This document shows, one piece after another, positions 18,729-56,622 of a stretch of DNA of 64,000 bases; the stretch's first letter is position 1, and each line of letters begins with the position of its first letter. Source of the DNA: Cyclospora cayetanensis (taxonomy: Eukaryota > Apicomplexa > Conoidasida > Eucoccidiorida > Eimeriidae); NCBI RefSeq assembly GCF_002999335.1, contig NW_020312749.1, forward strand, positions 1 to 64,000, given 5' to 3'. The notes beneath the pieces were generated by a model that searched no databases, was not told the origin of the DNA, and worked only from the letters and a program-made list of their open reading frames with translations. Both the position numbers and the translations under genes were made by a program.

Positions 18729-18833
18729 TTAGTACCAGGCTTGCCAGGTAGGTTTCGCAGTGGCAAGGAAATCTCTGCGGGTGGCAATTCCGAGGAGCAT
18801 CACCACTTGTGAGTCTATTGGGAGTTGCTCGGG
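18729..18833 (-). CDS. Last exon of the TRRAP-like gene: FATC domain
   Basis: This 105-base exon is outside the long open frame that ends at 19108. The donor AAAG|GTGAGC after base 19159 and an acceptor at about 18834 (CGTAG|CCC) join in phase 0. The exon codes [16 protein letters not shown] and ends PTWQAWY-stop. PIKK proteins end in a FATC domain of about 33 residues with a hydrophobic helix and a terminal aromatic pair (TRRAP ends AWHPWL). Without this exon the protein would end in an unrelated tail [14 protein letters not shown]. An acceptor six bases downstream (start 18827) is also possible. Confidence 0.82.
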   Translation of the reverse strand, partial: PEQLPIDSQVVMLLGIATRRDFLATAKPTWQAWY

Positions 18834-19924
18834 CTACGTACACCACACGCACACATGTATAAGTATACATAGATAGAAGTATATATGTATAGGAGTACAT
18901 ACAAACACTTGCACACATACACACAAACACCGCACAGTAAGCGAGGTGTGTGTGATTCGAGGGAGGAGAATGACGCTGGAGAGGATGCACGAGGCAGCAC
19001 ATATGAGCATGCAAGGGCAGACCCCTGCGTGTGTTCCTAAAGTTTCACAGATGCGCATGTCAGCAACTGCATCGCCTCTCAGGGGATTTTGGAAGTAAAG
19101 AGACTCCTCATGCCGTACAAGCAGAAGATGCGGGGAAAAGTCTGTGGCAAGCGCTCACCTTTGGCTCGGCTGGGGGCTTTGGCGTTCCCTGAAGTCTTTT
19201 GAGTGCTTCGGATATGCGGCTGATATTAATGTCAACGACTCGACGGACGGCAGCAATCTCTTCCACACTAGAACTGCTGCTGCTGGTTGTGCTGCTGTTT
19301 CCAGCCGCAGCAGCAGGCACTGGGGGTGAGGAGGATGCAGGTGTCGCCCTCTGTGAAGACCCCTCCGTCAACTGTTGCTGCAGCTGCTGCTTGTGCTGCT
19401 GCTGCTGCTGCTGCTTCTGCTTGTAGAGGAAGGATACGTCGTCTCTCACAAGCAGCGCCGCTGCGTTCGAGAAGTGGCTCGAGTATCGCTGCAGGCAGCA
19501 GACAAGAGTGTACATACACCCGGGAAGAAGGCCCGTGCGGCCAAAGACATCGATGAGAACCTCAATGTTTCTGGTAAGCCTGAAGGGCAGTCGCTCGGAG
19601 AAGTTGAGCGTCAGGCTCGAGGCGCAGTAGCAAGCTTTCAACTCCATCTGAAGAGCCTGTCCTGTCTCCGTATCCAGCAGAACCTTGGAAGGCGTGATAT
19701 CAGACATTGAAAAGATATAATTCAGCACGCAATACAGCGCGTGACTTTGCGTGAACTGACGCCTGAAGATGAAAAGCTCCTCTGCGCTGCGCACCCGCCG
19801 ATGCACATACATGCGAAGAACTTTGTCAGACACCAAGCCACACATGTGGCTGTACACCTCCTGTGCTGCCTGCAGCTGACAGCTCTGCTGGAATTCGGAC
19901 ATCCAGTGGTGCTCTTGCTGCTGC

Positions 19925-19995
<71 letters not shown>

Positions 19996-22900
19996 GGCTG
20001 CTGTCGGCAGGTTACCACCACTCACGAGGCTTTCCGAGATGCTGCCGCTGCTGGAAGCCGTTGCATTCGCAGCTATGCCGTCTTCAGGTCGTTCTCCTCC
20101 CGCTGTCGCACCAGCAGCAGCAGCAGAGGCAGAGGGATCTGCGGAAGCGGATGGAGCCTCTGAAGGCTGCAGCTCCAATATGCGACTGAGGAGTTGCTCC
20201 TGCTGCTCGTCTTGGCAGAAGCCTGGGGAAGTGAGCACTTGAATGAGTTGCTGAGGGAGGCGTCTGCCGCTGCTGCTGCTGTTGTTGTTGTTGGGGATTA
20301 TCTGCTGCTGCAGTTGTTGCTGCTGCTGGTGTTGCGCTCCGCCGTAAGGAGACGGCGTTGTGGGGTTCGCATCCTGAAGGAGCAGCGCCAGTGCTTGTTG
20401 CAGCATCTTGCTGTTGAGCTCATGAGCCATCATTTTGCGATGCAGCAACACGGGTAAGTCGGCGTCCATGCGCATCGTGGGAGCTGCATGCGCCGAGACT
20501 TCGACAAGGATCTGCTGCAAAGAGACGTAGGAGGGCGTGTCTTCTAGGAGTCGGCATCTGGGGTGAATCGACGCCTGAGCCGAGAGGGGGAACGCCAGAC
20601 CTCTCCTGCGAGATTGCTTGTGCCTGAGCAGCAATCTGTTGACTTGCAGCAGCAGACACAGGAGGCGCTGCTCGGTGCGCTGATGGGCTGTACTGTACGG
20701 CTGCACAACGAAGAAGTAGCTGCTGCCATTGCTGCCGATCATCTCGATACGCTTCAACGTGTAGTGGGAACGGGTGACACACGAGTAATCGGTGCCAAAC
20801 TGCTGCAAGTACACTGGAGGACGCTGCTGAGGGCTGAAGGGGCATCCATCTGCCAGCTGGAGCAGCCGCAAGCCTGGAACCTCGATTTCCACACTTACGC
20901 GCATAAACACATCGCACAGAGAGGCGCCAACATCCTCTAACGGTGTCTGCTGCTCGTTGCTCTGGGCAAGCCAAGAGAGCACATCCTTCCACCGCTTCAG
21001 CTTGGCGATGACGTCGCACAGACTCACACTGCTGCTGCTGCCTGTGCTAATGCTGCTGCTGCTGCCTGTGCTGCTGCTGCTGCTGCCTGCATTGCTGCTG
21101 CTGCTGCCTGCATTGCTGCTGCTGCTGCCTGTGCTAATGCTGCTGCCTGCATTGCTGCTGCTGCCCGCGGATGTGGATTCGTGGCAGCTGATCGCAAACT
21201 CAAAATCCTCCTTGAAAAGAGGCCACAAGCTCCGCATCGCTCGTCGCGCAGACTCTGCAGCGACGCCTCCGCAGCAACATCCGTTCCTGCTGCTGTTGCC
21301 TCGCCGGCTCTTGCTGCTGCTGCTCCCGCTGCTGCTGCCAAAGCCTCCAGAATTCGAGGCATCCGTTCCATAACGCGCCCTAAATCGCGAAATGATATTA
21401 ACCTTAAGGAACTGTGCAGCTACAGGAGGCAGAGAGGAATGCCCTTGAGACACCTCGACACACTGCTGCAACAGCGTGCGAATGGCGCAAAGAATTTCAT
21501 CAACTGTGGACGGCTTGGCGTGAGCTACAAGTTCCTCTGCAACACGAGCACACAACAAAAATACACACACGAAATATATATACATATATATGTATAGATG
21601 CGCGTGCGGCACGAAGAATTGCAACCTTCCCTTCTTCCCACCCCTTCCCCACATCCTTCCCCCTCCACGTCAGCGAGTTGTTCTAAGCCACGTATCCTCG
21701 AAGCTTCAGACGACAATATAACATGCCTGCAAGATGATCCAAGGCGATACACTGGGGTGTGAAGGAAGCGCGGAAGACCGTCATAAGCCACGAGAGCAGC
21801 GTCAATGACTGTTGTTGTTGCTGGGGTTGTTGTTGTTGTTGCTGGGGTTGTTGTTGTTGCTGGGGTTGTTGCTGCTGCTGTTGCTGCTGCTGCTGTTGCT
21901 GCTGTTGTTGATGCGGCTTTAGGGTTTGCAGCAGCTGCTGCTGCGCATAGAGCTCCCTCTTTTCCAAGTATGCCGTTCGGATGTCGAAGTAGAGCTGCTG
22001 CGGCGCCTGTAGGAGGAGGGCGTAAAGCAGTCGCTCTAGTTCTGCTGCTTCCTAAGAGAGCAACAGCAACACAAGCACACTGCCGAGTTGAGGATCCGCT
22101 GCAGCCTTACCCACACCGTCTGCCGCCCTCCCTCTGCCCCTCCTCCTCCCCCGAGGAAACTAAAGGACGGAAGCAGCGCCAGTGCGATCGCGCAAGAGCA
22201 CAGGACGGCATGGGCAGCAGCAACAGCAGCAGCAACAGCAGCAGCAACAGCAGCAGCACATGCAGCGCAGCCTACTGGACGATCAAGGCCTGTTAGCACT
22301 TGTGGAAGCCAAGGCAGCAGCAGCTGCGGCTGTGTGCACTTTCCCATGAGCTGTCTGAACACGCGGAGACAAAGGGAAGGCTCCCGTCCTGCTGCTGCTG
22401 CAGCGAGTCCAGTGCTGGACGCCCCTCCAGCAGCAGCAGCTGCTGCTGCTGCTGTTGACGCTGCTGGTGACGCAAATGCATCGCCATGCACGACGGGGGA
22501 AGGCGTGACACCCGCAGGGGATGCTGGAGAGTCTGCCGTTGCTTTCGCTGTGCCTCCGGCAGCAGCAGCTGCTGCTGCCACTGTAGCTGCTGTTGAACTC
22601 AGAGGCACTTGATCTTGTTCAGTCGGAGCAGGAGAGGCAACAGCACCTGCTCCTGTAGGAGGTCGCGTGTCACCATCGTACGACAGCAGCCAAAGGACGC
22701 GAGACATGTAAAGAGAACTCTTAACAGGTCTGCAGAACCAACCGCACACAAAAACACACATATATGTATACATATATATACATATATGCACATATACATA
22801 TATATATACATATATATACAGATACATACACATACATATACATATTCATATATATATATACATAAACACATACACACACATATATATATATATATACATA

Positions 22901-25900
22901 TATATATACATATATATATATATACATGAATAGACACACACTCGAACCGAATCGCTTGAACATATTGTTTTGAGACAGCAATCCAAGTCGTGTGGCTGGC
23001 CTACAGTCGATGCGACTCACCTGAGCTGAATATCCATAACATAGCCTGTAACCGCGGCAGCGAGATGCAGCTGCAGAGTGGACCAGTCTACTGGATTCTT
23101 GTCTAGGATTCCAGTGTCGCAGGCATTGCTGGTGCTGCTCGCATCAGCAGCAGCAAATGATTCTTGCTGCGATGCGCCTGCGGGTGATGCATGTGGCAGC
23201 CCTACTGGTTGTTGTTGCTGCTGTTGCTGCTGTTGTTGTTGCTGTTGTTGCTGCTGCTGCTGTTGGTGCATCTTCTGCTGCTGCTGCTGCAGCAACAGCA
23301 GTTGCTGCTGCTGGTGGCGTTGCTTAAGAGCCGATAGGAAGAGGGTGTCGTGAAGTTTTGCCCAGCACAGCCACGCTGGTGCGTAGAGGGGCTGCAGCAG
23401 CAGCACAGTCTTTAGTACAGACTCGGCTTCTGAAACAAGTTCTGCGTCAGCATCACAAGCGCAGCAATTGGAGCACCCTTCTCGACGAACGCTGCCTGCC
23501 TTTATTGCATGCAGCAGCAGCGGGCATACGCTCTGCTGCCTCGTGTCTGGTTCTAGCAGTGCCTGTTTGTCGGCAACCTTTTGAATACCTTCTCTGGACA
23601 GTCCTGGGTGCTGCTGCGGCTCGTTCGATGCATGCAGACGGTGCAGGAGTTTGGCTTTGAGCAGCAGCAGCTGCAGACTCTGCTGCTGCAGCTGTGGCTG
23701 CTGCCAGGAGGGGCCGTCACACAAGGCGTCCATATTTAGCGAATTTAGCAGCTGGACCCCTGAAGCGCCAGCAGAAGGATCGGCAGACAGCAACAGTGGC
23801 TAAACCACACAAACAAGGCTACAGAATACACACAAACTACTGCTGCTAACGCTAATGCTAGTGCTAATGCTAGTGCTGATGCTAGTGCTAATGCTAGTGC
23901 TGATGCTAGTGCTGATGCTAGTGCTAATGCTAGTGCTAATGCTCGAACTGCGACAGCCTGAACAAGACTCGAGTGAGTGAGGCTGCAGCAGCAGTGTGGG
24001 AGAAGCATGCGCAGCACGTGAAGCACAGCAATTGCAGGAGGTTCTAGACTAACGCGCGTAAATCTGTGCCACAAACGAACCTGCAACCCAGTGAGAGGGC
24101 TCGTCTAGACACAGTTTTGCCTTCTCCACCTGAACATGCCGCATCGCGCAGGACGCATGGGATCGCTCGACATCACAAACAAGCGAACAGACAGCAGCGC
24201 GCTCTCCAAATATATGCAAAGTCTGTCAGATACTTCCCGTCGCGTGTGTGGGTGTCTGGACCAAGTGACACGAGAGTAGAAACCGCCTATAGAATGCAAA
24301 CAGACGCTGCTATCTATCTACCAGCGGCTGCCAGGATGGGCTTAGGGAATGCAGCCTGAGCGCTCTCTCTGTCCAAGTTGCCAAGTATTTATCGCTCTTA
24401 GAGAGGGATACGCTGCAACTCCCTCCCCTGCTGCATGATGCTAGTAAGCAGATCTGCTAGAAGCTAGTCCTTCTAGGGGCGGGGGGAAGAAGGAAGCCGT
24501 GCGGATGCGTTTCAAGGTGCACCAGGCAGAGACAGCACATGCACAGGGAAGGCTAACGCGTCGCAACTGCATGGAAGCTCTTTGTCTACAAGTCTGTGTG
24601 TTTATATACACATGTACGTGGATGCATGCATGTGTGCACATGCCAACATGTGTAGGTGCACTGTCGATGTCTCTACATGGAGTATGTATGTGCATGCATG
24701 CATATACATATATGGATGTACAAGCCTATCTATACGTGCGAGCACATGTCTATGTGTTTGTGTGAGAGTTGGCGGACAAGTGCGGCGAGGTGCTCCTGGG
24801 CATAGGCAGGTTGATTGAAGGCTGGCAGATGCTGAAGTTTTATGAGGAGCGCCAAGGAGATGTCTCGCAATTGATGAGCGCTTCGTGTAACGGAGGCAAA
24901 CCGCAGCATGGTCCATGGCAGATCCTGCAGGAAGGGGGGTAGCGTCCTTTTGGCTTCGGGAGACAAGTGGGGGGATGCTGACACGGCTGACTGCACGATG
25001 CTAAAGACAAAGTTTCGCCTGAGAGGGGTACAGACAGCAGCGGCACACCCGTTTTGAAAACAACGCCTTGAGGGGGGGGGGATGCGGCTCTATCTGTCAT
25101 TACATCACAGGGCAAGAGGAAGCAGCAAAAAGCGTCAACGGCAGCGTTGCGTGTGCCGCCTGCATACATAGCAGACTGAGCCACCTGCTCCAGCAAATCT
25201 GAAGCTTCCCCCCTCTTTCTTTGCCTCCCCCTTGCGCGATCATTTCACGCTCTGCACCTTTCGAGACTCACCAAACAAACAAATCGTTCCAGCAGCTGAT
25301 AGCATCGCAGTCATTCGGAAGACGATCTCTCCACGCATTGAGAGTCGTGCGCACCAACGGAACCTCGCCTGACACCACACACAGCCAACCGCACAGACAT
25401 CACCCCAGGAGACGCTTGAAACGCTTGACCTTCTCTCTTTCTCTCTCTCTCTCCCGCATGCGCGCGGTAAAAGGCGAAAAAAGGAAGAAGAAGGCACCCC
25501 GGGGAAACAAAAAAACGGGGGGACCTTTTTTGTGTAAGCCAGCAACCCGAGGCACTCCGCGCACCTCGCGCTTGCACATGGAGAGAAACACCCACCTGGA
25601 CTGCTTATCTTCTTGGCAAGATGAAGAATCAGTTTATAGCCTTCCAGCAGCTCCACGTACAGCTGGAACTGCAGAAGCAGAGGGACGTGAGCGTCCGTCG
25701 GCTGCGGAAAAAAACACCACCAGAACCAGAGTTCAAGCTTACGATGTTTCATCAAAACAGACATTGAGCTACACGGACAGACACGGCGTGTGTGTGGAGA
25801 CGGCGGGCAAGGCAACGAAAGTGCCCTTCTTCGTCCACGGGCAGACAGTGCAGCGGCGCAGAGTGCGTGCAGCTACAAGAATTTCCCGCGTTGGAAGGCG

Positions 25901-26215
25901 AACTTTTTTCCACGAGCTTTCGAAAAGACAGCAAACCCGCAAGGTCCGCCGAGAAAAGATATTTCATTCGGTATACTCACAATCGATGGCAGACTTCGCC
26001 ACGATTGCAGCAGCAGCCGTTGCACTTCTGCACAGTGCATGTCGATTTCCTGCAGCGCAACAACGGCAAGGCAACCACGCGCCACACGTTCCGCAAGAAA
26101 TGGCAGTTTCAGCTATACGCAGGTTCGAGGGTTACCCTGCAAGCAGACAGGTGTGCGACAGCTACTCTGTACGCCTGCTCTCCTACTCTGACGCCGCTGT
26201 CTCTGTCTCTCTATG

Positions 26216-26274
<59 letters not shown>

Positions 26275-26695
26275 CCCTCCAAGTGGCCTCTAATGCCCTA
26301 AAACAACCACTCAACGCGACGCCTCTCCCGGTGCTAAATACCTGCAGCTTCTCTGTGCGCACCCATGGCCGTGCATCTGCTTCCAGCTGCCCCTTTGGAT
26401 AGAGAACTTCGTGCAGCGACTGGTATGTCTGAAACACGAATTCGCGCAAACACAGTCACACAAAAGACCACAGACACCTGCCCGCAGCCGAAGAGCGTCC
26501 TCGGCTTCCTGCCTGTATCCTCACCCCTTCCCCCCGCGAAGCGCGCATACACCCACACCCCCAAAATTGCCACACACATCTACAAAACATGCACAGACAG
26601 ACACATATGCGCATATATATATGTACATACACATACACACATATATACACACATGTAAAACAAAAACATATACACACACCACATGTAAAACACAA

Positions 26696-26742
<47 letters not shown>

Positions 26743-29700
26743 AAACACCAATATCTATACACACATGTAAAACACAAATATCTATATACACACATGTAAA
26801 ACACAAACATCTGTACACACATTTAAAACACAAACATCTGTACACACATGTAAAACACACACATATACACACACACATACACACACCACCTGTATACACA
26901 CACCACATGTAAAACACAAATATATATATTAACACATGTAAAACACAAATATGTATATTAACACATGTGAAACACAACTATCTATACTCATATAAAACAC
27001 AAATATCTATACACACATAAAAAACACACATGTACATACACACATTTAAAACACACGCATGCGCTTATTACCCCCATACGCCCGTACATACATAGAAAAG
27101 CAACAGGGGGGTTTTAGGAAGGGGGGATTGTACCTGACAAAGCTTCGTCGCCGGTTCACTAACGTGATGCGTCTGCATAAGCCTATCGATCTCTCCCCAG
27201 TGCTGCAGTTTGGCCGCGCACTGTAGCGACAGGCGGGAACGACGTGCTGCCGCTTGCGCCACTTCGTGCAGTGAATTCCAGCGATTCAACTCGCGACAAC
27301 AGTCGATCCACAAGCGTTCCCTGAGCATTTTCGCAATTCGACACCGAAGTGTGGCCTCTACAAAATACGTTGCCTCTTGGCTTGCCCTGAGACAAACCTT
27401 TCTATTCGTCCTGCTGCTGAGTCTGCGAAAGTTGAGGGACCTTCGCGGCAGCCGAAGAGCGAGAGTCATGATGCCTGCCCTCTGCAAAAAAAGAAAAGCC
27501 TCCCTAACTTCCCCTCCCCCCTCTCTCTGATTTCTCTAGGAAACACACCACCACGTCACCTCCTCGCGCCGCTCTTCCGTATCCAGCCGCATGCCCTGAA
27601 AATATGTATACAATAAATATACGCACATATATATAATAAATATACGCACATGTATATAATAAATATACGCACATGTATATAATAAATATACGCACATAGG
27701 TACACCGCGATCAGAGTGAGGCGGAGCGAGCAGGAAAACGCGCAAGCCAGGGGATACCCAACAAAAAACACACGCAGTGCCCCCTCGTGCAAGAGCTGCC
27801 ATCCACACACAGGAAGGCATTTTACACTTCTAGGCCGTAGCCTTCGTAAGCGCGTGCATTAAATATATGCATGCATATATACATATATATAGATATAGAT
27901 ATAGATATATATATATATATTCATCTATTTATGTACAAGTAGACAGGTGGGCTAGCTATTTATGGGGGTAGAGTAGGCAAGCAATTTCGACGATAGCTGT
28001 AGACGAACCTGCGCTTGGAGGGCTTTGAGGTTCGACACGACAACGTTCTTGGCAGAGCCAAAGTGACTGTGCTGCATCAGCGATAAGGCGGTGGCTGTTG
28101 GGCAGCACTGGGTGCGGGTTAGAATAACGCCGACGCGATAGTCGCTCTCTTCAAGGTGTCCATACACCTCAGCAAGGTACTGCAATAAGACCCGCACATA
28201 CACATACATGTGCATGAATACAAACACCCACACACACATGAGAATACACATATACATGCACAGCCACACTTTCGCATGATGTCTCGTAGAAAGAAAGGCA
28301 AAAAACACGAAGTGCAGATCAGGAAACATACACACACACAGAGCACGCAGCTTCTCGCAGAGAAACATGCACATTCCGTCAGGTCGATGCTTACCGCTGC
28401 AGCCTTCCGCGCCAGACTCGCATACTGCTGTTGCTGTAATTTGTACGCTGCCACAGTCGTTGCATCGCCTTGCTGCTGCCCCTCAGCAGCAGTGGAGCCA
28501 GATGCCGCTAGATCATGATCGTAATCGATGCTGTCGTCAAAGAAATGCAATTTACTCAGCCCAAAGTCTAGGGAAGTGGTCTTCTTTTCTTGCTGCTGCT
28601 GCTGTTGCTGCTCTTGTTGCTGCTGCTCTTGTTGCTGCTGCTCTTGTTGCTGCTGCTCTTGCTGCTGCTGCCCTCGATCAGCACACGACTCGTCTTGCTT
28701 CACTGAATTGAGCGGTTCGGTTGTGGAAGGAGTCAGGGGGGAAGGAGCAGCAGCACTAGCACTCCCCCCAGCCGCTGCTGCAGCCGCTTCCGCAGAGACT
28801 GAGACTGCATGCAGATAGCTGTGTTGCAGCAGCTGCAGTGCCTCGTGACTGCAGTTCGAATGCAATGCCAAATGCTGCAGAACCTCCACCGGCAGCAGTG
28901 GAAGAGGGTCAAGTTGCAGCAGCGCCTGCAGGAACGGCTGCAACACGCGGCTTTTGCTGCAGCTGCTGGTGCTACTGCTGCGCTGCAGCATTTGCTGCTG
29001 CTGCTGCTTCTGGTGTGGCTCGCCATCAGGAGTGCCTTCATCTCCGCTGTACATAGAAGCACCCGCAAGCACAAACTCCTCACACGTACAAACAAGTTAT
29101 ACTTAAGCCCGCACTGATAGATATACACACATATATATACATATATGTACATACATGTATATATGTACATATATATGTATATACATATAGCACCCATTTG
29201 CCTCCAAAAGTATCTGGGGACGGCCATGGGGGAATATTACGCGTGAGGCTTGCGTGCTGCCAGCCCTTCCGTCACATTGCCTCTTTGTGGGGTGGTGTGA
29301 GTGCAAAAGAGTTCTTTCTGAGGCTGCGGTTTGAGGCTCTACATATTTATATGTATGTGGGGAATTTGTACCTGTCAGCGTCCATGTGCCTTGAAAGGAA
29401 GAGAGCACACGCCTCTGCGAGGCTGGCGCGCTGGTCGTCTGTAGCAACACTCCAGCATGCCTTAAAGACTGCCGAGAGAAGCAGCTCTGTCAGCGGGATA
29501 GAGAAAAAGGCGGTTACTTCCAAACCTGCGAAGAAGCTCTCGCCGTCTTGCAGACGGCAGAGCTGCTGGTGCTGTTCTAGGGGCAGCACCTGTTGCTTGC
29601 AAAACTCCGCATGCTGCTGCAGCACAGACTCGAGAGATTTGCGCCACGCTGCGAATCCAGGAGCATGTTGCAACAACCCTAGTCTCAGATGCACTTCAAG

Positions 29701-31780
29701 ATATTCGCGGTGAGACTCCTGGAGCTGTTGTTGTTGCTGTTGTTGCTGGTGTAGATATTCCTCGTCCTCCTCCATGGGAGTTGCAGCGAGCTGCTGCTGC
29801 TGCTGCTGTTTCGTTGGCGGAGGGGTTGTTGTCAGCGCAGAGTAGGCAGAAATTCCATGCGCCACCAGTGGCGTTACGCCAGCAGCGGCTGCTGCCTCGG
29901 GAGCAGCTGTTGAGGCTGAATTGCTCTGCTGTTGTAGAATGTGTTGGAGGACGCTGATTTCGCAGACGGTGTTGAGGCTAAGGCTGTTCGTGTGCTGCTG
30001 CTGCGGAACCAGCGGTGGTAGCAGTGCAGCAGCTGCATCACGGAGAAGCTGACGCGGGGGGGGAGGGGGCTTTTGAACCAGCTGTTCAACGCTGCCGCTG
30101 CTGCCGTTCATGAGCATCAGAGCGACGATTGTGTGCAGCACGTTGCGGGAAGAAATGACAGTCCAATGCGGCATGAGCAGGAGAAGCTGCAGCCTCTTGA
30201 GACAGCCCATGGGCCGAGCAGGCAGCCGCTGCTGCTGTAGATACACACGATGCTGCAGCTCGAGCTGCACATCTAGCAACGCCAGAGCAGCGCGTCGGAT
30301 GCTGACTACCGAGGACTGTGTCGCCTGCAGGAGTGAATGCAGCAGCGAGACGGGCAGCAGCTGAGCCTCGTCGGGTAGCTGGGGGAGAGGAGCAGCGCTG
30401 GAAGCTGCGCCGCGAGAAACGCTGCCACCACTGCCACCACCAGAAACACCACTACTACCAGCAGAAACACTGGGAACGACGACGGCGTCTGGAGGCTGCC
30501 GCTCGCTCTTGATTTGGTGCGGCTGCTTAGTGGCAGCGGCGTCTGCTTGCAGGGAGGAAACAGCTGCAACATGAGTGCGCTCAATGAGATCTGCAGCCAT
30601 CGGAGGCGGAGCAGCAGCAAATACCACCGCTAGCCACTGCAGCAACACCCCCACTTCAGCGCTGCGATGGCTTGCCAGCGGAGTCAGCAAGCCCAGCAGC
30701 ACTTGCAACTCTTCGACTGTGAATAATCCCCCTTTGCTGCCATCGACACGCCGCTGCCGCTGCCGCATGCAGCAGCAACAAGCGCCAGCCCCAGCACCGC
30801 CGTCCGCCTCCACACAGCTGCTGCTGTCACTGCTGCTGCTCCCCACACCATCCCCGTTGCGCAGCACGCACGCGCTGCATGCCGCGTCTTCCTCTTCGTA
30901 GACTCCCATGAGCCGCAGACTTCTGTACAGCGTAGGGAGCCGCCGCAAGTCTTGCCGCTTGCGCCGCTGCTGCTCCGGAAGCGCAGCAGCAGCCACCGTT
31001 CTCCACAAGTAGTCCTCCCACAAATGAATCTGCTGCAGCTGCTCAGACTGCTCCTCCATCGTAGGAAGATCCGGCGAAGCAACAAATGTCGCACCGTACA
31101 GCTCCTGCTCCGCTGCAGCTCTAGCCTCCTCGCAGTCCAACTCAGCTCCTGCTGCTGCGACTGCTGCGCCTGAAGAGCTCCCGCTTCCATCTCCCTTGTT
31201 GCCACAGGCGCTCTCGAGGCGCCGCTTCGTCCGCATCTCATCGTCACTCGCACGAAAAGCTGCGTCGGCAACCCCTGCAGCAGCAGCTGCTTCCCTTTCA
31301 AGTGTCTCGACGCCTTTGGTGCTGCTGCTGCAGTTCTTGTTGCTGTCGCTTGCACTGGCAGCGCTGCGGTGTATCTCCAGCCGCAGGAGCTGCACTTCCT
31401 CCAGCTGCAAGACGTCTCGCTGATGTTGCTGCTGGTGCGTGGCGTAGCTGCTTCCCCTGCACGCGCTCCAGGAAGCTCCGGGAACGGCTGCGAGGCTTGC
31501 GACGGTTGCTGCTGCAGCGGATCGCTGCCTGCAGCAAGCACAGTCCTCCCCCTCCCGAGTCTGCACTTCACGTTTTTGCGGCAGCGCAAAAAAGGGGCCT
31601 AATGCAAGACGACCGATGGTATTCAAACATCCCAGCGCGAGAGGATGCAGCGGCGAGGAACACGCGGCAAAGGCGTGCTGCAGCGACTGCAGCAATGCCG
31701 CCTTCTCGGCAGCCACGTCCAGAGGGAAGGCAGCAGCTGCTGCACAGCCCGCTGCAGCTAATGGACAGTCCGTCTTTGCA

Positions 31781-31823
<43 letters not shown>

Positions 31824-34502: not shown

Positions 34503-34533
<31 letters not shown>

Positions 34534-42058: not shown

Positions 42059-42105
<47 letters not shown>

Positions 42106-48100: not shown

Positions 48101-48985
48101 GCTGCACTAGGAAGGCTACGAGCGTAGATGGAGCTTGAGGCTTTTCATTCACTGATAATATGTCTGTCTGTATGATGATTATCTGTCTGTCTGTATGATG
48201 ATTATCTGTCTGTCTGTATGATGATTATCTGTCTGCCTGTATGATGGTATGTCTGTCTGTATGATGAATGTCTGTCTGCCTGTATGATGATTATCTGTCT
48301 GCCTGTATGATGGTATTGCTGTCTGTATAATGATTGTCTGTCTGCCTGTATGATGATTATCTGTCTGCCTGTATGATGATTGTCTGTCTGCCTGTATAAT
48401 GATTATCTGTCTGCCTGTACGACGATTGTCTGTCTGTACGATTGTCTGCTTGCATTCTTCTGTATGCCAGTTTGCACAGCATACAAACCCTACTTACTTT
48501 GAAGGCGTCTTGCGCTGTGACTGCGTCAGATCTGTCAAATATATCGACAGAGAAGAGGAGCTGGTGCGATAAGCCAAGTTGCCTTTGGGGTCTTCCCCCG
48601 CTGCTGCAGCAGCAGCAGCCAGTGCTGCTGCTGCTGCTGCTGCATGCACATGCATTTGCCCCCTTAGCGGGCTCTGTCGCAGGTGGGGATCGTGCCGCAC
48701 AGAGCCTCTGCCATGCATGCCGCGCGCATGTCGCAGCTGCGTCTGGAGCTTGTGAAGGACCAACGAGCTGAGCGGAGATGTGTGGAAAGGGCAGAGCACA
48801 CAAAACACCTGCCACATCGCAAAACACGCATGCAAAAACTCGTGCTCAATGCCTCGCTGCCAGCGGCGTTAACAAGGAGAAATACGCGCATACGCCCACC
48901 CCTGCAGCAGGAGGAAGCAAAACACTACGCCTTTTGCGGCAACAGCACAGCTGTGAAGCAAAGGGACAGTCTCCAAGCCAAACAG

Positions 48986-49018
<33 letters not shown>

Positions 49019-52000
49019 TATAGAGGCACCAAGGTGTTTCTACCCTTGAGACTTGCCTTGCCCAGCTATCGGCACTTGCATTTCAAGAGGCAGCATGAGC
49101 AGATCGCTTGTCTGAGCCTGCGAAGACAGCTGAGAAGCTCCGTCAAACTGCCGATACACCTCCAGCAACACCTCATCGCTCTCGTAGGACTCCCCGCTAG
49201 TGCTCCTGCCGCTGCTTCCACCGTCATTCAAACAGTGAATTATGCGATTGCGTTGCGGCAGCATTGGTGGCATCAGCGCAGCACGCCGCTCCCGCAACAG
49301 AGGCAGTCGGGGTGTCAAATACTCCAAGAAAGCCCATGAGAAGGTCTGTGCATACATATACACACATATATACACATGTATACACAGAGACACATAGATG
49401 GACATATAGATAGAGATATCCTTACATATACAGACTTTGAGACATATAGGAACTGAGGCATACAGACATGCACATACAACAATACAGAGTCGCTAGATAC
49501 ACATCAATACAGAGCCGCTACATACATATAAATACAAACATACATACATATAAGTACATACATTCATACACAGAAATACAAACATACATATAAATACATA
49601 CATTCATACATCTCGATCCAGAAATACATACATTCATACACCTCAATCCAGAAATACATACACTTACACACATGGATCCAGAAATACATACATAAACATA
49701 CATATACATACATACATTTATACGCGTATATGAATACAGATATCCATACACCCCTGGCCGCAAGCCTGCCTCTCATCCCCCTCTACAGAGCTGCCCTCCT
49801 TCCGCGCATGCATTGCTCGAGAGTCTTTGCCGCTGGTGTTGTGTCTGTCTGGTATGCGCTTCTCAGCTTCCCCCCCTCCCCGCGACGCGACTTGAGAGAC
49901 AGCACGTGTCGACAAGTCGCTCGCGTCTTACCTTGCTTGTGTGTTGATGCCCTAGGAAGAACTGCAGCAGCGCAACGCACTGCGGGAAGAGAGAAATGAG
50001 CTGTTGCAACGTCGCCACATTTGCAGCTGCAAAGCCTGCTGCATCGGCAGGGTGCAAGAAGGCTAGGGAGGAAGAGGCAAGTTCGAGCAGCTCCTTCTCC
50101 TCGACTTGCGCAACATTCAATCCGAGAACCTCGACTGCCTCGGGGATCCCCTGCGACGTTGTCACAGCAAGGCTTTGTACGGAGAATCAGTCGACGCTTC
50201 GACGAGACAGCCGCCGAGCGGGCATAAAACGCACCACAACACCTCCCTCCACCTGCAGCAACTTCCCCCCGTCTTATAGCCTGCATGCATGCGAGAAAGA
50301 GGGAGGAGTCTTCTTGCAAGCGGCGCCACACCGTAGATAGAAACTGACCTTAAAAAGGGCGCCAGTGAGGGGATACGTCGGAGGCAGAGCAATAAGCGTG
50401 CAGCCGATGCCACCCTCCTCTACGCGATGCTGCAGCCGCGAAGTTGCAGCAAATGCGAAGCACTGCGGCAGAAAAAAGCGCAACAAGCCACGCCTCTCCC
50501 CGCGCGTGTGACTGACGCAAGAAAGAGTTTCCTTTAAAACAAAATGGGCAAACGGCGTTCCTGAAAAAGGAGCTGCCAGCGCCGCTGCCGAGGCGTCTGG
50601 GGAGGTGCAAGTGCTGCAGTCAAGGAGAGCACGAGACACTCCAAAAAACGCAGCATCAATAGAGTGTCGTCCACACGCAGCAGCAGCAGCCGCTACAAAT
50701 TACCTTGGCGTAGGTAAGCGCACTGCCCACTGTCGCGTAAAAGGCCTCTTCTAGAAGTGCGCGACAATCCGGAGGCAGCATCTGTCCGTGCGGCAGCAGC
50801 CTCACGTCAAAGGAAGCGCGTCTGCTGTTACTCGCTGCCGCCCCTGCTGCTGCTGCTGTGAGGCTCCCTCCTCCTCCGCCTTGCTGCTGCTGCTGCTGCA
50901 GGCGGCGCTGCTGCTGCTGCTGCGGCAGCACCACAATCTGATACACGAGACACCGCAACGCAATGCAGGTGCTCCGCAAAAGACTCTTGGTTTCTCGCAA
51001 GAAGGACTGATACACTTGCTGCTGCTGCGGAGACAGTGGACGCGTCGACGCTGCTGCCACTCCTGCTGCTGCTCCTGCCGATCCTGGCAACGGCACATGC
51101 GGTGGAAAAAAATGAGCACCGCTGTTTCTGCCGCTGCTGAGCCATCCGTCTACCTCTTCAGCTCCTTCATCACTGCATGCCGCCGCATGCATCTGCACAA
51201 AAACATCCTCAGCCCCCACACATGCACACGAAAATGCAACATCCCAAACGCCAGGCGAAACCATACACACATCTGCTAAAATAGACACAAGGCTCTACGC
51301 AACACACCTCCGCATGCACATGGATGGGTGTCTGCTTGCACATGAACATGCATACACGCATTTATGAAGGAGCATGGACATACGTGTACATATATGTATG
51401 TGTATTTATCTATGTATATGTGTGTACATATATTTATATGTGTGTACATATATTTATATGTGTGTATATATATGTATATATGTGTATATATATGTATATA
51501 TGTGCATATAGATGTACATATGTGCATATAGATGTACATATGTGCATATATATGTATATGCATACGTGTATATACATATGTATATGTGTGCATATATATG
51601 TATGTGTGTATAAATATGTATATCTATCTATCTATATACATATATATATATACATATTTAAGCCGACATGCCTGTGGTATCTCCTCTTGTAGCTCGATAA
51701 GCGAAGAGCAGAGAATGCGCAACGCCAGAAGTAAAAGCTCCATCGTTTCTTGTTGCATGCGTTGCACGCTGGTTGTGGCGCTGTTATTGTTGCTGTTGCT
51801 GTTATTGTTGCTGTTGCTGTTATTGTTGCTGTTGCTGTTATTCTTACTGGTGTCTTTCCGTATTTCGGAGGCTACATCATTTCCGACAGCCGCTCCTGCC
51901 GCGGCTTGCTCGTTTGCAGCAGCGGCGGCTAATTCTGCAGGCTCAGCTGCATGCGCAGCGACGTGCACTGCAGCTGGCAATACGCCTGCAGCTGCTGCTG

Positions 52001-52204
52001 GAGCAGAAGCCTCCTTTGTTGCTGCTGTAGGTGCTGCCTCGGGGGCAGCCGCTGCCGCTGCTTCTGCATACTTGTTCACTGCCAAATCGCATACGAAATT
52101 CATCAGCTTCGCAACAAGATGTCGAATGCTCAGCGCCGCCAACTGACTGCCCCCTCCGACAGTGCAACCCCCGAGCCCACCACTTTTCTCCGCTGTATTT
52201 TTAG

Positions 52205-52241
<37 letters not shown>

Positions 52242-52287
52242 ATCGAACGAGCCTCCAGCGCCCTCGTCAAAAGACTTAAGTGCTGCC

Positions 52288-52324
<37 letters not shown>

Positions 52325-55300
52325 GCAAATGCGGACGAGACTGCAGCAGCAGCAGCCCGCTCCACCGAACGACGCGCATCAGCAACGACAGCGACACGCA
52401 AATCGGAGATGGAAATATCAACAAAAAGTCGTGCAAGTGGCATATCGTGTACACCCTAACAAGTCGCAAACACACACACACACACACAACAGCCAAAAAC
52501 AACAAACACTAAGCGTCCTAAAGAACCCCGCTTTGTGCTCGCATGCATACGCATACACACATACGCATAGAGACGTATACGTGTAGACACATACGCATAG
52601 AGACGTATACATGTAGACACATACGCATAGAGACGTGTACATGTAGACACATACGCATAGAGACGTATACATGTAGACACATACGCATAGAGACGTATAC
52701 ATGTAGACACATACGCATAGAGACGTATACATGTAGACACATACGCATAGAGACGTATACATGTAGACACATAGGCATAGACACATACGCATAGACACAT
52801 AGGCATACACAAATACGCATAGATATATACACATAGACACATAGGCATACGCATAGACTTGTACATAATGAAGCATTGACATACACGACATATCCATATA
52901 TGTGCACACATATCCACACACCTACACCCAGATACATATACATATATATATACATAGACACGTACACATATACACACACGCATACACGCGCATATATATA
53001 TATATATATATACATATCCACACAGCGCCGCCTGCGTCATCCAGGCAAGCGAGTCTAGCCAGTAGATGATACACGAGGGTAAGGCCAGAAGCGCATACCT
53101 GAGAAGTGCAGAGTCAAGCCTCTCGGTAAAAACGGAAAGCTCCAGAGACATCAGTCGCTCCACAACTGGCGTGAGAGCACCGACAAAAGAAGATGCGGCG
53201 AGCAACTTTGCCGCCTCATGTACCTGCACAGAGACACCCCACACAGAGAAACCTAGGCGTTGCTTGTGGGGTGGCATCATGGCGTGTGGCAGCAGGGAGG
53301 GAAAGCAGGCAGCATGCTGCGCAGTTACACTAGGGAGAGTGACTGCAAAAGCAGGGAGAAAATGCTACGCGAAAACACACAGTTTTGCGCTTCAGGAAAA
53401 GCGGAGGCTTCAGCGCTTGCAACAGGCGAACCATGACATGCGGCAGCTGCTGAAGGGCACGTGTCGTGAATGCCTCAAGCGAGCCGCTGCTGCCACTGAC
53501 AGGGGTGATGCTGCTGCTGCTGCTGCTGCTGTATGCTCCGTTGACATCCCCAGAGGCGCTATTCTTCAGAAGGTAGCAGAGGAACAGCAAAATGCGACTT
53601 TGCGCTTGAAACAAATCTGCAACAGCCACAGCAGCATCAGTAGTAGCAGTACACCCGCAGAAGCGGCGTCTCTCCACAAATATCACCAACGGCGGCTGCG
53701 ATACCAACAGCGACAGGAGCTATAGCAGTATAGCACCGATAAAGGCTATAGCAGTATAGCAGCAACAGGAGCTATAGCAGTATAGCAGCAACAGGAGCTA
53801 TAGCAGTATAGCACCAACAAAGGCTATTGCAGTATAGCACCAACAAAGGCTATTGCAGTATAGCACCAACAGGAGCTATAGCAGTATAGCACCAACAGGA
53901 GCTAAAAAGAAGTATAGCACCAACAGGAGCTATAGCAGTATAGCAGCAACAGGAGCTAAAAAAAGAAGTATAGCAGCAACAGGAGCTAAAAAGAAGTATA
54001 GCAGCAACAGGAGCTATAGCACTATAGCAGCAACAGGAGCTATAGCACTATAGCACCAACAGGAGCTTAAAAAGAAGTACAGCACCAACAGGAGAAAGAG
54101 AGCAGTGTAGCAGCAACAGGAGCTAAAAAAAGAAGTATAGTACCAACAGGAGCTATAGCAGTATAGCACCAACAGGAGCTATAGCACTATAGCACCAACA
54201 GGAGCTAAAAAGAAGTATAGCACCAACAGGAGAAAGAGAGCAGTATAGCAGCAGCCACAGCCACAGCACAGCATCAGCAGACGTAATTTATCATCGCGCA
54301 GCTGCAAGGAGCTGCATATACTGCGGCAGCAACTGGAGGCATACCCTTGCTGGCTTCAGCAGTTCCTTGATCCGTGAGGAAGGCTGGCGGCAATTCGAGA
54401 GCAACGAATCGCAGCAGCAGATCCAAACAGACCCTAAGGCAGCAATTAATCGCAGCAACAATTCACAGAATTTGAGGGCAGCGCCTTTGAGTCTGTCTTA
54501 TGCGGCGGAGTCTGAAGCGGTTGGCATCAAGCAGTGCAACTGCGAATTTTCGTTGGAGGACAGGCTGCTCGCATTCTGATTTGCCGCTTAAAACTGAAAG
54601 AGAAATTTATCTATCTATACACATATGTATGAATCTGCGTCTGCAAATTTTGTAGAGGGAAAGAAAGAGAAAGAAAGAAAGAAAGAGAACGAGAGGCACA
54701 GAAAGAAAGAGGAAGAGAGACAGAGAAACAGACAGAGAGAGAAAAAGAGAGACAGAGAAAGAGAGAGAGAGAAACAGAGAAAGGCAGAGAGAGAGAGACA
54801 GAAAGAGACAGAGATATACATATAAATATAAAAGAAAGACTTTTGCCCGCAAACCTTTCTGCTTTTTCTTTTTTCCACGCCTCTTTTCGTGCTGCTGCCC
54901 CCGCATCGCACTTGCTGATGTGTGTAGGTGTCGAGGAGTTTTTGCTAGATGACACGTACAAGTGATCTGGCTGCGTGAAAATGGTGAGCGTTTGTAGCTT
55001 GGCGTTCAAGGCGATAACGCAGTAAGCTGCATCTCCAGCAACGCGAACAGAGAGCCGCGAAGGGACTAACTGCCCCGAATCTCGCCGGATGAATCCTGAG
55101 CTCAAGGCACCTCGAAAGCAACTTTTGAAGTCTCCACGATGCAGCAAGGAAGCGCGATCTCGCGAGGCAGCACTAGACAACGGACTCTCTCGTGCACTGC
55201 TGGTGCGGCTGCTGGAGAAAAACGAACCGAGAGGCAGCTCTCCTGGCTTGGGAAGCACGCCAGTGCGTTTGAACTGCAGCACTTGTCGCTCGATAGCCTC

Positions 55301-56622
55301 GATCAGATTCTCGTAGATCTGGAAATCGGCAGATCCAGACGCAGGCAGGCATGCATGCACAGAGGCAGGCGATGGCGGCAGCAGACAACAACAACACACG
55401 CACACAGCCTCCGTGGCAGCTGGAGACGGCTGCCTTCGTCGGCCCTCTTGAGCTTTCAAAACGCCGCAGCGCAAAGTGGGTGCGGAAGCTTGCAGTCAAG
55501 ATTCTGCGGCAGAAGAACATGCCGACAAGCGTGTGCTCCTCCTAAAGACATACCGGAGGTAAAGTCTGCGTGAGCAGCTCGAGAGCCAGTCCTTGCGGCT
55601 CTCGAATGTGCTTTGAAATCTCGATTAAGGCTGCCAAGGATCGCACTGCGCATTCTTCGCATTCCCCGCGAATACTCCACATGCAGCCAGACCACAAGCG
55701 CTGCAGCAGCAGACGGCAAGCACGCGACATGCGGAGCGAGGGATGCCTCTACTGCTGCTGGTCAGAAGAGCCGCTCGAGATGCTCGCGGAGAAACGGCGC
55801 ATTCGGGGAGGCTAGCCTGTCTGCAGCACCTACCGGCAAGAGTGTGGCGTGCTGGTCTAAGAGATGCTGCTGCTGCTGCGACGTCAGGACGGCAAGTTGC
55901 TGCTGCGACAAAACAAGAGGGGTGGCGGCAGGAACGGCTAGCAGCCTCAGCAGCAGGAGGAGCTGCTGACGCAAGGCATGTGGTTCTCCTTCTTGATTTC
56001 CAATGTTCACGTGGTGCAGCATCTGCAGAACGGGAGGCAGCAGGAGCGCCGCAGCTTCCGCTGCAGCAGCGGCTGCTGCCGTCCCTTCCGAGCCAAAGCT
56101 CCCTGCTGCTGCCTCGGCTGCTGCTGCTGAGGATGTTGCTGCTGCTGAGGAAGTTGCTGCTGCTGAGGATGTTGCTGCTGCTGAGGAAGTTGCTGCTGCT
56201 GCATTCGACGCCGTTATTTGCTGCAAGGCGGAGGCACAGCGCCGAGCAGCTGCAAGGCGTTCAGATGCCTCGTCAGGGGGAGCACCAGCACCGCTGGTGT
56301 TGCTGCCGCTGGGTTCGCTGATGAAGCGATCTGCATTCACAACAAAGTGATGCAAGGTTGCTGCTGCAGCTGGGAAGAGCTGGAAGAGTGGACTGAATGC
56401 GGGGGAAGCAGCAGAGCCAGGCGGAGGCGTCGATTGTGGCGTTTGCGCTGCAGCTGCTGCAGCCTCTGCTGCTGGAGGTTGCATTTCCCCTGCAGGATTC
56501 TCGGCGGAAGCTGCAGCTGGTATTTGGCCAGGGGGTGTTGCATGCTCTGATGATGGAGGCGCAGCAGCGTTTACCGCAGTCAGCGGCAGATGTTGTTGCT
56601 GATCGACATGCATCGTCGACAC
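18729..56622 (-). CDS. TRRAP/Tra1-type pseudokinase, giant multi-exon gene
   Basis: TRRAP/Tra1 is the PIKK-family scaffold of SAGA and NuA4 histone acetyltransferase complexes, where it contacts activators in the nucleus. All landmarks occur in order on the minus strand: N-terminal HEAT exons, [16 protein letters not shown] segments ([35 protein letters not shown]), a PI3K-like domain without catalytic residues, and FATC. Exons whose splice sites and phases I resolved include 56622-55834, 55700-55554, 51192-50704, 50150-49932, 47946-47848, 45820-45703, 45452-45372, 45239-45159, 44787-44480, 44337-42538, 41851-41732, 35712-35505, 35195-34113, 33911-33281, 29046-28395, 28179-28009, 27481-27134, 26428-26342, 26049-25981, 25701-25596, 23799-23021, 22729-22276, 22051-21692, 21536-19159 and 18833-18729. 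About 20 others are approximate. Total about 45 exons and 7,500-8,000 residues, against 3,859 for human TRRAP; Gln, Ala, Ser, Leu and Asn runs account for much of the excess. Start at the ATG of 56622 is provisional. Confidence 0.88.
19159..21536 (-). CDS. TRRAP-like exon: end of FAT and degenerate PI3K-like domain
   Basis: The acceptor GTTGCAG|AGGAACTTG fixes the 5' edge at 21536 and the donor the 3' edge at 19159. The exon starts with the last FAT helices ([35 protein letters not shown]). The PI3K-like domain follows: [84 protein letters not shown] and [10 protein letters not shown]. These line up with human TRRAP segment by segment. The catalytic DRHxxN and the DFG aspartate of active PIKKs are absent, as in TRRAP/Tra1, so it should be a pseudokinase. 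Two Gln/Asn/Ser-rich inserts, including a 27-Gln run, sit within the fold. Confidence 0.9.
19915..19995 (-). repeat. Coding CAG/CAA tract: 27 consecutive Gln inside the PI3K-like domain
   Basis: On the minus strand the codons are mostly CAG with scattered CAA. The tract lies between the activation-segment-proximal helix block (ending near residues [15 protein letters not shown]) and [10 protein letters not shown], so it interrupts the pseudokinase C-lobe. The CAA interruptions would slow slippage and suggest the run is kept at protein level. Confidence 0.9.
22745..22930. repeat. TA/CA/CATATA microsatellite in a TRRAP-like intron
   Basis: Dense TATA, CATA and ACACA units fill the intron between the FAT exons 22729-22276 and 23799-23021. 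Short open frames across it on both strands (MYIYIYIC-type translations) are spurious. Confidence 0.85.
23840..23944. repeat. 12-bp-periodic tandem repeat (GCTAATGCTAGT type)
   Basis: Units of GCTAATGCTAGT and GCTGATGCTAGT alternate about eight times. It sits just upstream (on the minus strand, after the donor) of the small exon around 24081-23960 of the TRRAP-like gene and is intronic. Confidence 0.9.
26216..26272. repeat. (TA)n microsatellite
   Basis: About 27 TA dinucleotides with one early interruption lie in the intron between TRRAP-like exons 26428-26342 and 26049-25981. Confidence 0.95.
26640..27060. repeat. Minisatellite with TGTAAAACACAAATAT core
   Basis: About a dozen degenerate units of 24-40 bp share the core ATGTAAAACACAAATAT and are spaced by ACACAC runs, with a (TA)n block at about 26698-26738. 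It fills the intron upstream of exon 26428-26342 of the TRRAP-like gene. Confidence 0.85.
27598..27700. repeat. 23-bp tandem repeat, about four copies
   Basis: Units built on AATAAATATACGCACATG are repeated four times. The repeat is intronic, between exons 28179-28009 and 27481-27134 of the TRRAP-like gene. Confidence 0.85.
28575..28672 (-). repeat. Coding CAG tract giving repeated Q/E units
   Basis: On the minus strand this codes repeated QQQQE pentads. It lies in the FAT-proximal exon 29046-28395 of the TRRAP-like gene. The regular Glu every five residues shows expansion of a 15-base unit rather than of a single codon. Confidence 0.85.
31918..32165. repeat. ACATCTATATATATAC repeat
   Basis: About 12 units around the 16-mer ACATCTATATATATAC, with variants containing CATACACA, fill the intron upstream of the exon starting near 31900 in the TRRAP-like gene. 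Confidence 0.85.
32640..32970. repeat. CACAC-rich intron with a 47-bp triplication
   Basis: From about 32790 to 32935 a unit of about 47 bp containing ACCTTACTACATACACTG is repeated three times with few changes. The flanks are degenerate ACAC/TACAC sequence. It occupies the intron between exons ending 33027 and starting 32533 of the TRRAP-like gene. Confidence 0.8.
33263..33280 (-). other. Candidate 18-base micro-intron in the TRRAP-like gene
   Basis: After exon 33911-33281 (ending LLAAICTG) the minus strand reads GTACGTAAAGGACCTTAG and then resumes in the same frame with [13 protein letters not shown], leading into [20 protein letters not shown]. The 18 bases contain an in-frame TAA, so they cannot be coding. 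Either this is an intron of 18 bases, or a 60-base intron ending at GTGCAAAG (33221-33280) is used; both preserve the frame. Confidence 0.45.
36961..37077 (-). other. Leu-coding CTG tract that may be a retained intron (exitron-like)
   Basis: Inside the open exon at about 37450-35813 a 117-base stretch codes VVVL, a run of about 17 Leu, then [15 protein letters not shown]. It begins GTAGTG after GCG and ends TTTTTTGAGCAG. The length is a multiple of three and contains no stop, so both spliced and unspliced forms stay in frame. If retained, it would put a transmembrane-like Leu run into a nuclear HEAT scaffold, which makes splicing the more likely fate. Confidence 0.5.
40720..40960. repeat. TATG/TATA microsatellite
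   Basis: Mixed TGTATG, GATGTATT and TATATA units lie in the intron upstream of the exon starting near 40652. A (TC)n run follows at about 41025-41055. Confidence 0.85.
41858..42385. repeat. Minisatellite, six to seven units of about 67-90 bp with a CCCGCCTTGCCATCTCGCAT core
   Basis: The 20-base core CCCGCCTTGCCATCTCGCAT is repeated near 41895, 41964, 42039, 42130, 42197 and 42285, each followed by AAATATATATA and a CACATACACACAC run. A diverged seventh copy, CCCGCTTTGCCATCG, stands at 42364. It fills a TRRAP-like intron just 5' (minus strand) of exon 41851-41732. Confidence 0.9.
42538..44337 (-). CDS. TRRAP-like HEAT exon with the ILGKLGG signature
   Basis: An 1800-base exon of exactly 600 codons lies between acceptor GCTGCTGCAG|GTGCAA and donor ACGAG|GTAACG. 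It carries [20 protein letters not shown], the counterpart of the very conserved RxLGKxGGxNR block of TRRAP/Tra1 HEAT repeats. Two acidic/Ser-rich inserts ([20 protein letters not shown] onward) and several Gln and Leu runs follow. The preceding exon, 44787-44480, gives [20 protein letters not shown], which aligns with TRRAP LRTLELCVDNLQPDFLYDHI. This pair is the strongest single piece of evidence for orthology in the HEAT part. Confidence 0.9.
45957..46200. repeat. AGACAGACA/CACA tetranucleotide-type repeat
   Basis: Units ACAGACAGACATAGACACAC are repeated with length variation for about 240 bases. It is intronic in the TRRAP-like gene. Confidence 0.9.
47552..47755. repeat. 18-bp tandem repeat (AGCAGCAGCAGTAAGAGC type)
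   Basis: About 11 units of AGCAGCAGCAGTAAGAGC, with GTGAAAGC and GTAAAAGC variants, lie directly upstream of the acceptor of exon 47542-46930 (minus strand). The + strand translation SSSKSSSKS is a shadow, not a protein. On the minus strand it supplies a CTTACTGCTGCTGCT tract in front of that acceptor. Confidence 0.85.
48155..48440. repeat. About 24-bp tandem repeat (TATCTGTCTGCCTGTATGAT core)
   Basis: About 12 units around TATCTGTCTGCCTGTATGAT, with TG/TC variants, fill most of the intron between exons about 48830-48498 and 47946-47848 of the TRRAP-like gene. Confidence 0.9.
48984..49014. repeat. (CA)n microsatellite
   Basis: About 15 CA units, intronic in the TRRAP-like gene next to the donor side of exon 49345-49057. 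Confidence 0.9.
49500..49735. repeat. Degenerate ATACATACATTCATAC repeat
   Basis: Units around ATACATACATTCATACA and a CTCAATCCAGAA spacer recur for about 230 bases. Intronic, between exons 50150-49932 and 49345-49057. Confidence 0.8.
51370..51662. repeat. TGTGTATATATATG microsatellite
   Basis: Imperfect TATG, TGTG and CATA units extend for almost 300 bases in the intron between the exon about 52340-51670 and exon 51192-50704 of the TRRAP-like gene. Confidence 0.85.
51781..51845 (-). repeat. Coding 18-bp repeat giving Asn/Ser
   Basis: Three and a half units with the core GTTATTGTTGCTGTTGCT (+ strand) encode (N,S)n on the minus strand within the TRRAP-like exon about 52340-51670. The codons are AAC, AGC and AAT rather than CAG, so this homopolymer-like tract did not come from simple CAG expansion. 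Confidence 0.85.
52537..52860. repeat. 30-bp minisatellite, about eight copies
   Basis: Near-identical 30-base units containing ACACATACGCATAGAGACGT repeat head to tail from 52556 to about 52770, then decay into shorter ACACATAGGCATAG units. It is intronic, between TRRAP-like exons starting 53224 and about 52340. All six frames stay partly open, which creates false proteins of [10 protein letters not shown] type. Confidence 0.92.
53703..54260. repeat. Large minisatellite, 25-27-bp units (CAACAGGAGCTATAGCAGTA core)
   Basis: About 20 units around CAACAGGAGCTATAGCAGTA, interspersed with AAAAAGAAGTATAGCA variants, form the longest tandem array in the window (about 560 bases). It begins three bases past a run that reads RYQQRQEL and is intronic to the TRRAP-like gene, between exons starting 55318 and 53616. 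Confidence 0.9.
54650..54828. repeat. Polypurine GA tract
   Basis: About 180 bases of almost uninterrupted purines (GAGA, AAGA, GAAA) on the + strand, so a CT tract on the minus strand. It precedes a minus-strand AAATTTCTCTTTCAG that looks like an acceptor at about 54598, so it may mark the 3' half of a TRRAP-like intron. Confidence 0.88.

Follow-up and report, generated by a model that had tools for sequence, protein, structure and literature searches.

TRRAP/Tra1 is the activator-binding scaffold of the SAGA and NuA4 complexes, where it helps to recruit histone-acetylating enzymes, and a pseudokinase is its hallmark. In Toxoplasma, TGME49_268370 is listed in Table 1 of PMC6381018 as a TRRAP of 904 kDa that carries both FAT and FATC in one protein, and the same tabulation gives it a genome-wide CRISPR fitness score of -3.56. 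For Plasmodium, the available excerpt of the 2004 kinome describes three PI3K/PI4K-related proteins found without FAT and FATC (PMC526369), and TRA1 is named in papers that appeared after that survey (including PMC11036802 and PMC8396726). As excerpted, these report P. falciparum Tra1 together with MYST/NuA4 and not with GCN5. A full-text search of the open-licence literature for a paper on an Eimeria TRRAP gene found none.

Here we analyse a gene of this type from Cyclospora cayetanensis. It lies on the minus strand of the window, by which we mean the whole stretch of 64,000 nucleotides under study, a piece of contig C368 in a genome of 43.2 Mb and 392 contigs. A double-length Toxoplasma copy has already been tabulated, so the gene adds one more member to the known TRRAP/Tra1 family. 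The Toxoplasma sequence used for comparison was entry P0001 (strain ARI), a 4,020-aa partial protein that we infer to come from the same gene as TGME49_268370.

Results

The minus-strand gene is a TRRAP/Tra1 orthologue by sequence

An 853-aa open frame at 21,669-19,111 matches the Tra1/TRRAP group over the FRB and both kinase lobes. When the kinase exon was compared with solved structures (phmmer), the ten best matches all belonged to this group (E 5e-18 to 1.6e-13), nine of them so named and the tenth, 9ynu_A (3,893 aa), carrying a generic kinase name; mTOR ranked after them and matched the C-lobe only (E 1e-9). The spliced FAT piece behaved similarly, with the best ten of 11 matches in the Tra1/TRRAP group (E 1.1e-17 to 4.5e-12) and the eleventh, Snf5, falling on a low-complexity part. 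For the 44.8-kb exon, searched alone, 10 of the 11 listed rows belonged to the Tra1/TRRAP group, at E 0.2 to 0.92, and the LGGKNR exon alone gave no match to solved structures.

The profiles that had been proposed as a check of the identification scored unevenly. Pfam PI3_PI4_kinase (72.8 bits at the kinase exon), FAT (51.9 bits on the spliced piece; cut-off 24.2) and Tra1_central exceeded their cut-offs, while a second Tra1_central block (positions 326-403, in spliced pieces) reached 24.5 bits against a cut-off of 27, and Tra1_ring also stayed under its threshold. Pfam FATC gave no score at the last exon, nor in Toxoplasma P0001, though the C-termini of Toxoplasma and TRRAP align there. A six-frame search of the whole genome with Pfam FAT returned no match, and no positive control rang in that search. 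The blocks follow the order expected from the human protein, with matches to Tra1 (6ig9_T) at 866-934, 2811-2976 and 3314-3471 in sequence, the first of which has E 0.91 when taken alone.

In a PIKK tree of 13 rows the protein stood beside Toxoplasma (100/100) and inside TRRAP (100/100); the tree was flagged for its long branches and for uneven composition, an ATM row was absent, and the SMG1, ATR, TOR and DNA-PK rows were assigned by source name or Pfam domains. The catalytic residues are replaced as they are in Toxoplasma. The GDRHxxN site of active PIKKs reads SDITPSK here and ADINPSK in Toxoplasma, and the (I/V)D(F/Y) (DFG) site reads ELK in both, whereas GDRH is kept in the SMG1, ATR, TOR and DNA-PK rows and in two kinases of the same genome, own_L025 and own_L026. 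The protein is therefore probably catalytically dead, judged from these motifs. L025 (G000:C374:9673-10674) is a PI3K/PIKK-type kinase with intact GDRHLNN and DFG, and the kinase exon of TRRAP, poly-Q included, also matches there. At four further kinase places (C62, C279, C223 and C364) the catalytic motifs were not found in one frame, so these offer no comparison for the lost motifs.

The same evidence bears on whether the gene might encode another, catalytically active PIKK (TOR, ATM, ATR, SMG1 or DNA-PKcs). The C-lobe match to mTOR, and the label of protein kinase that the Toxoplasma homologue bears in NCBI, would suit such an enzyme; the tree (within its rows), the missing catalytic residues, the Tra1-specific Pfam domains and the FAT matches, all but the low-complexity one in the Tra1/TRRAP group, make it extremely improbable. 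A placement of the C-terminal part in TOR or ATR, the outcome that had been set against the original prediction, was rejected on the position within TRRAP and the replaced GDRHxxN and DFG motifs. Thus the gene that ends at 18,729 on the minus strand is, by its sequence, a TRRAP/Tra1 orthologue, as had been predicted.

Alignment by tblastn placed 18 of 18 Toxoplasma segments collinearly by their starts, from 34,973 to 18,732, at 25 to 70% identity, with the kinase exon 46% identical. No second copy was seen in the genome (22 matches, 53 of 300 candidates scored); among the 22, the C374 kinase (L025) alone also covers much of the kinase part, and the rest centre on poly-Q. Read unspliced, the locus breaks into many short frames, as a decayed pseudogene might. 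However, the spliced model has no internal stops, the Toxoplasma segments are conserved and no second copy is apparent, and decay was rejected as a scarcely credible account of the locus.

A draft gene model from the HEAT ring to the FATC-like end

The exons are set apart by microsatellite-rich introns. Under the strictest splice penalty the draft model comprises 43 exons and 42 introns (48 to 1,161 bp, median 283), with 22,557 coding bases, 7,519 aa and 0 internal stops. Exon number varies with the splice penalty (43, 50 or 77), the 50- and 77-exon variants yielding 7,685 and 7,639 aa, and a weak-penalty prediction of 143 exons, many of them tiny, changed with stronger penalties and GC donors; exon edges away from homology blocks are drafts. 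The model contains five GC donors (first intron bases 54880, 51671, 49056, 34112 and 21726; for example CAG/GCATGT and AAG/GCAAGT), and the one at 21726 is the only one demanded by the Toxoplasma alignment. A probable intron at 41871-42330 holds a compound 62/74/94-bp tandem array with AT-dinucleotide tracts and a CACATACACAC...CCTTGCCATCTCGC unit.

Table 1. Exons of the draft TRRAP/Tra1 gene model, listed from the 3′ end, with the evidence for each.
Feature	Position	Strand	Evidence
Last exon, FATC-like C-terminus	18732..18833	-	tblastn to Toxoplasma P0001, 55% identity, E 1e-6; TRRAP profile positions 4149-4177, E 6.5e-5
Large exon: FAT end, FRB, N-lobe, poly-Q insert, pseudokinase C-lobe	19159..21536	-	phmmer and Pfam PI3_PI4_kinase; no match in NCBIfam search
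FAT exon, then GC-AG intron	21727..22051	-	tblastn to P0001; donor CAG/GCATGT
FAT exon with VLWLLSYD and PWLPQ	22276..22729	-	tblastn, profile; 3′ end hand-set from Toxoplasma
FAT exon with poly-Q insert	23021..23759	-	tblastn to P0001; profile 3328-3441
FAT exon	24746..25018	-	tblastn to P0001, E 2e-17; profile 3229-3305
FAT exon	25272..25368	-	tblastn, profile; spliced FAT piece against Tra1 chain 5y81_B, E 1.1e-17
FAT exon	25596..25701	-	tblastn, profile, solved-structure match of spliced FAT piece
FAT exon	25981..26112	-	tblastn to P0001; 5′ edge uncertain
FAT exon	26342..26428	-	tblastn to P0001
FAT exon	27092..27481	-	tblastn, profile; 5′ and 3′ edges uncertain
Exon	28009..28179	-	tblastn, profile
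HEAT exon with poly-Q/E inserts	28395..29046	-	profile 2854-2951, E 5e-11
HEAT ring exons (31901-29372, 32533-32299, 33100-33018, 33911-33281, 35195-34113)	29372..35195	-	tblastn to P0001 aa 652-995 at 34973-34107 and aa 1166-1286 at 33668-33279; remaining exons and edges ab initio
HEAT ring exons, mostly ab initio (35707-35479, 37452-35786, 38169-37645, 38711-38250, 40650-38858, 41405-41162)	35479..41405	-	near-noise ordered profile matches: 40033-39197, E 0.045; profile positions 1099-1147 (1.4 bits) and 1637-1867 (2.3 bits), where a reversed control gave one of 0.4 bits
LGGKNR exon (44.1 kb), Tra1_ring start	42538..44337	-	Pfam Tra1_ring 2-43, E 0.0019, under cut-off
Tra1_central end	44462..44882	-	Pfam Tra1_central 526-571/585, 30 bits (cut-off 27); profile 713-796
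Ab initio HEAT-region exons (45239-45121, 45386-45372, 46532-46501, 47377-47138, 47811-47426, 48639-48498)	45121..48639	-	45243-45154, profile E 0.0012; no support from pairwise comparison of the span as a whole
Tra1_central exons (49345-49057, 50150-49932, 50462-50349, 51192-50704)	49057..51192	-	
Possible N-terminal HEAT exons (52455-51672, 53223-53024, 53719-53381)	51672..53719	-	
Putative first exons (56613-55830, 55419-54881)	54881..56613	-	ab initio only

The 3′ end coincides with the predicted coordinate, the stop codon TAA of the last exon occupying 18,731-18,729. TRRAP-type profiles extend the gene through Tra1_ring and Tra1_central up to about 50 kb; between 35 and 43 kb it is chiefly ab initio prediction that links the exons, and the profile matches are close to noise. 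Further upstream, 53.7-53.0 kb is weakly similar to the N-terminal HEAT region, which takes up roughly the first 320 positions of the profile, and homology searches of 56.6-54.9 kb gave nothing consistent or clearly above chance. The 5′ end is for these reasons a guess; the predicted start is an ATG at 56613 with an in-frame stop upstream. Of the single 38-kb gene originally proposed, about 31 kb is spanned by matching blocks in order, and the 5 kb at the 5′ end show no clear homology.

These gradations in support raise the possibility that the region is divided, with TRRAP confined to a C-terminal gene (about 37-18.7 kb) and one or more separate genes lying upstream of it (56.6-37 kb). Homology is thin over two intervals, 35-43 kb and 56.6-51.2 kb. 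The ARI entry of Toxoplasma starts, by eye, at about 37 kb (its first tblastn segment, aa 652, lies at 34,973); a search for a longer Toxoplasma sequence gave one TRRAP of unnamed source, and a search for an upstream Toxoplasma piece found none. However, Tra1_central and Tra1_ring blocks occur upstream in the correct order and strand, a TRRAP lacking them would be half a protein, and the 904 kDa tabulated for the ME49 TRRAP is well above the 4,020-aa partial entry. We therefore regard a division into several genes as very unlikely, and the TRRAP/Tra1 locus as one predicted gene from the HEAT ring to the FATC-like end.

According to this model, HEAT repeats, FAT, a PI3K-like kinase fold that is dead and a FATC-like end would follow one another in a single very large protein, an order alike in human TRRAP and yeast Tra1; the present protein differs from these two in its roughly double length and in an N-terminal HEAT region that is barely recognisable. 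The Toxoplasma TRRAP is closer, being the sister in the tree, with the same block order and loss of the same catalytic residues. The analysis yields a draft gene model that can be put to use, with a map of its domains, where a plain listing of open reading frames leaves the gene in pieces. Automatic gene callers might split it too, as had been predicted, although in Toxoplasma TGME49_268370 is tabulated as a single 904-kDa protein; the ARI entry is the 4,020-aa partial.

Inserts matched in amount in Toxoplasma account for much of the excess in the C-terminal half

At 7,519 aa, the model is about 1.95 times the length of human TRRAP (3,859 residues in chain 8h7g_C), in agreement with the predicted doubling. 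The prediction had attributed this growth to homopolymer inserts. In the uncorrected model of 7,574 residues, homopolymer runs of at least 5 account for 562 residues, and low-entropy windows cover 53%. Because an automatic alignment of six sequences misplaced the partial Toxoplasma N-terminus, lengths were compared by motif anchors, and the comparison of inserts covers the C-terminal half. Counted from the WER/WEL block of the ring through to the C-terminus, the protein has 3,391 residues here, 3,258 in Toxoplasma and 2,008 in an ordinary-sized TRRAP (P0002); from the eye-matched start of the Toxoplasma entry the figures are 4,050 here (3,995 after intron correction) against 4,020.

The large inserts are likewise held in common. 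The ring-to-FAT insert measures 1554 residues here and 1810 in Toxoplasma against 769 in P0002, and the CRLLED-to-C-lobe insert 266 and 231 against 90, while core spacings are rigid (62/62/63 and 60/60/60 residues for here/Toxoplasma/P0002). Single intervals vary in either direction: VLWLLSYD-to-PWLPQ is larger here (129 versus 33 in Toxoplasma), FRB-to-N-lobe is larger in Toxoplasma (179 versus 87 here), and PWLPQ-to-FRB is longest in P0002 (297/205/340). Since anchor-to-anchor lengths and large inserts match, most of the excess in the C-terminal half is common to Toxoplasma in amount.

Composition, in contrast, differs. Over the eye-matched half, low entropy reaches 49% here and 25% in Toxoplasma, and homopolymer runs of at least 5 number 37 here and 3 in P0001, those of at least 7 being 14 and 0. 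Homopolymers thus fail to explain the doubling, because Toxoplasma is nearly as long and has no run of 7 or more, and this part of the original prediction did not hold. We suggest instead that the extra length consists of low-complexity inserts placed between conserved blocks, on top of which Eimeria-type CAG homopolymers may have been added later. CAG-type repeats were found in the genome, and homopolymers of a like kind are given for 57% of E. tenella genes in the available text of PMC4287421. The homopolymers here look like a further layer over an insert excess common with Toxoplasma, and the combination of like length with unlike composition suggests either an old origin of the inserts or selection on them.

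A NuA4/MYST scaffold is the best guess for function

The original prediction assigned the protein to SAGA and NuA4 jointly. The nearest functional description is that of P. falciparum TRA1 (PF3D7_1303800), which is described in the excerpt of PMC11036802 as an apicomplexan TRA1 in a MYST/NuA4 complex. Because the Plasmodium protein was found there only in NuA4, a SAGA role is doubtful in Apicomplexa, a further difference from human TRRAP and yeast Tra1; the NuA4 part of the assignment is retained by inference from Plasmodium, and joint service is in doubt.

Profile searches of the present genome found MYST matches at two places and matches to the NuA4-type partners EAF6, YEATS and HSA, with an EPL1 match just under cut-off; searches of the genome for Spt20 and for TFIID-18kDa/Spt3 gave no match, and no positive control rang in either. 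On the basis of these matches, of the absence of Spt20 and Spt3 matches and of the Plasmodium association, a NuA4/MYST scaffold role would be our best guess. Most likely, a non-catalytic scaffold would bind transcription activators and hold a MYST (NuA4-like) complex on promoters. Candidate GCN5 genes were observed at G000:C146:107161-108466 and G000:C3:67068-69193, where, as in GCN5, a bromodomain match (in two pieces) comes after a GNAT match within about 1.5 kb.

We place high confidence in the overall reading of a TRRAP orthologue with HEAT, FAT, dead kinase and a FATC-like end, enlarged by inserts between conserved blocks and most likely serving as a NuA4-like scaffold. A bolder proposal, which we consider unlikely, is that Coccidia doubled Tra1 by inserts conserved in total length and free in composition, that Tra1 left GCN5/SAGA, and that the inserts stand in for the missing core subunits of SAGA by offering lineage-specific surfaces on which AP2 factors or the MYST complex dock.

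Neighbouring features in the window

Upstream of the TRRAP gene, and divergent from it, the plus strand carries a 712-aa Ala-rich open frame (57526-59664) with a TPR-like stretch recognised by eye (LKERGNEEFRRGAVSGALHFYSAAIKKL); a match to Pfam CCDC53 stays below its cut-off and probably reflects coiled-coil noise. Two repeats also lie upstream, an 8.7-copy array of a 32-bp unit (59754-60029) and a perfect two-copy tandem duplication of 94 bp (61535-61724). On the minus strand at 62046-63532 are exons of a HAD-IIA phosphatase, like eukaryotic phosphoglycolate/pyridoxal phosphatase, with TIGR01452 matches of E 4e-15 and 1e-11, each under cut-off.
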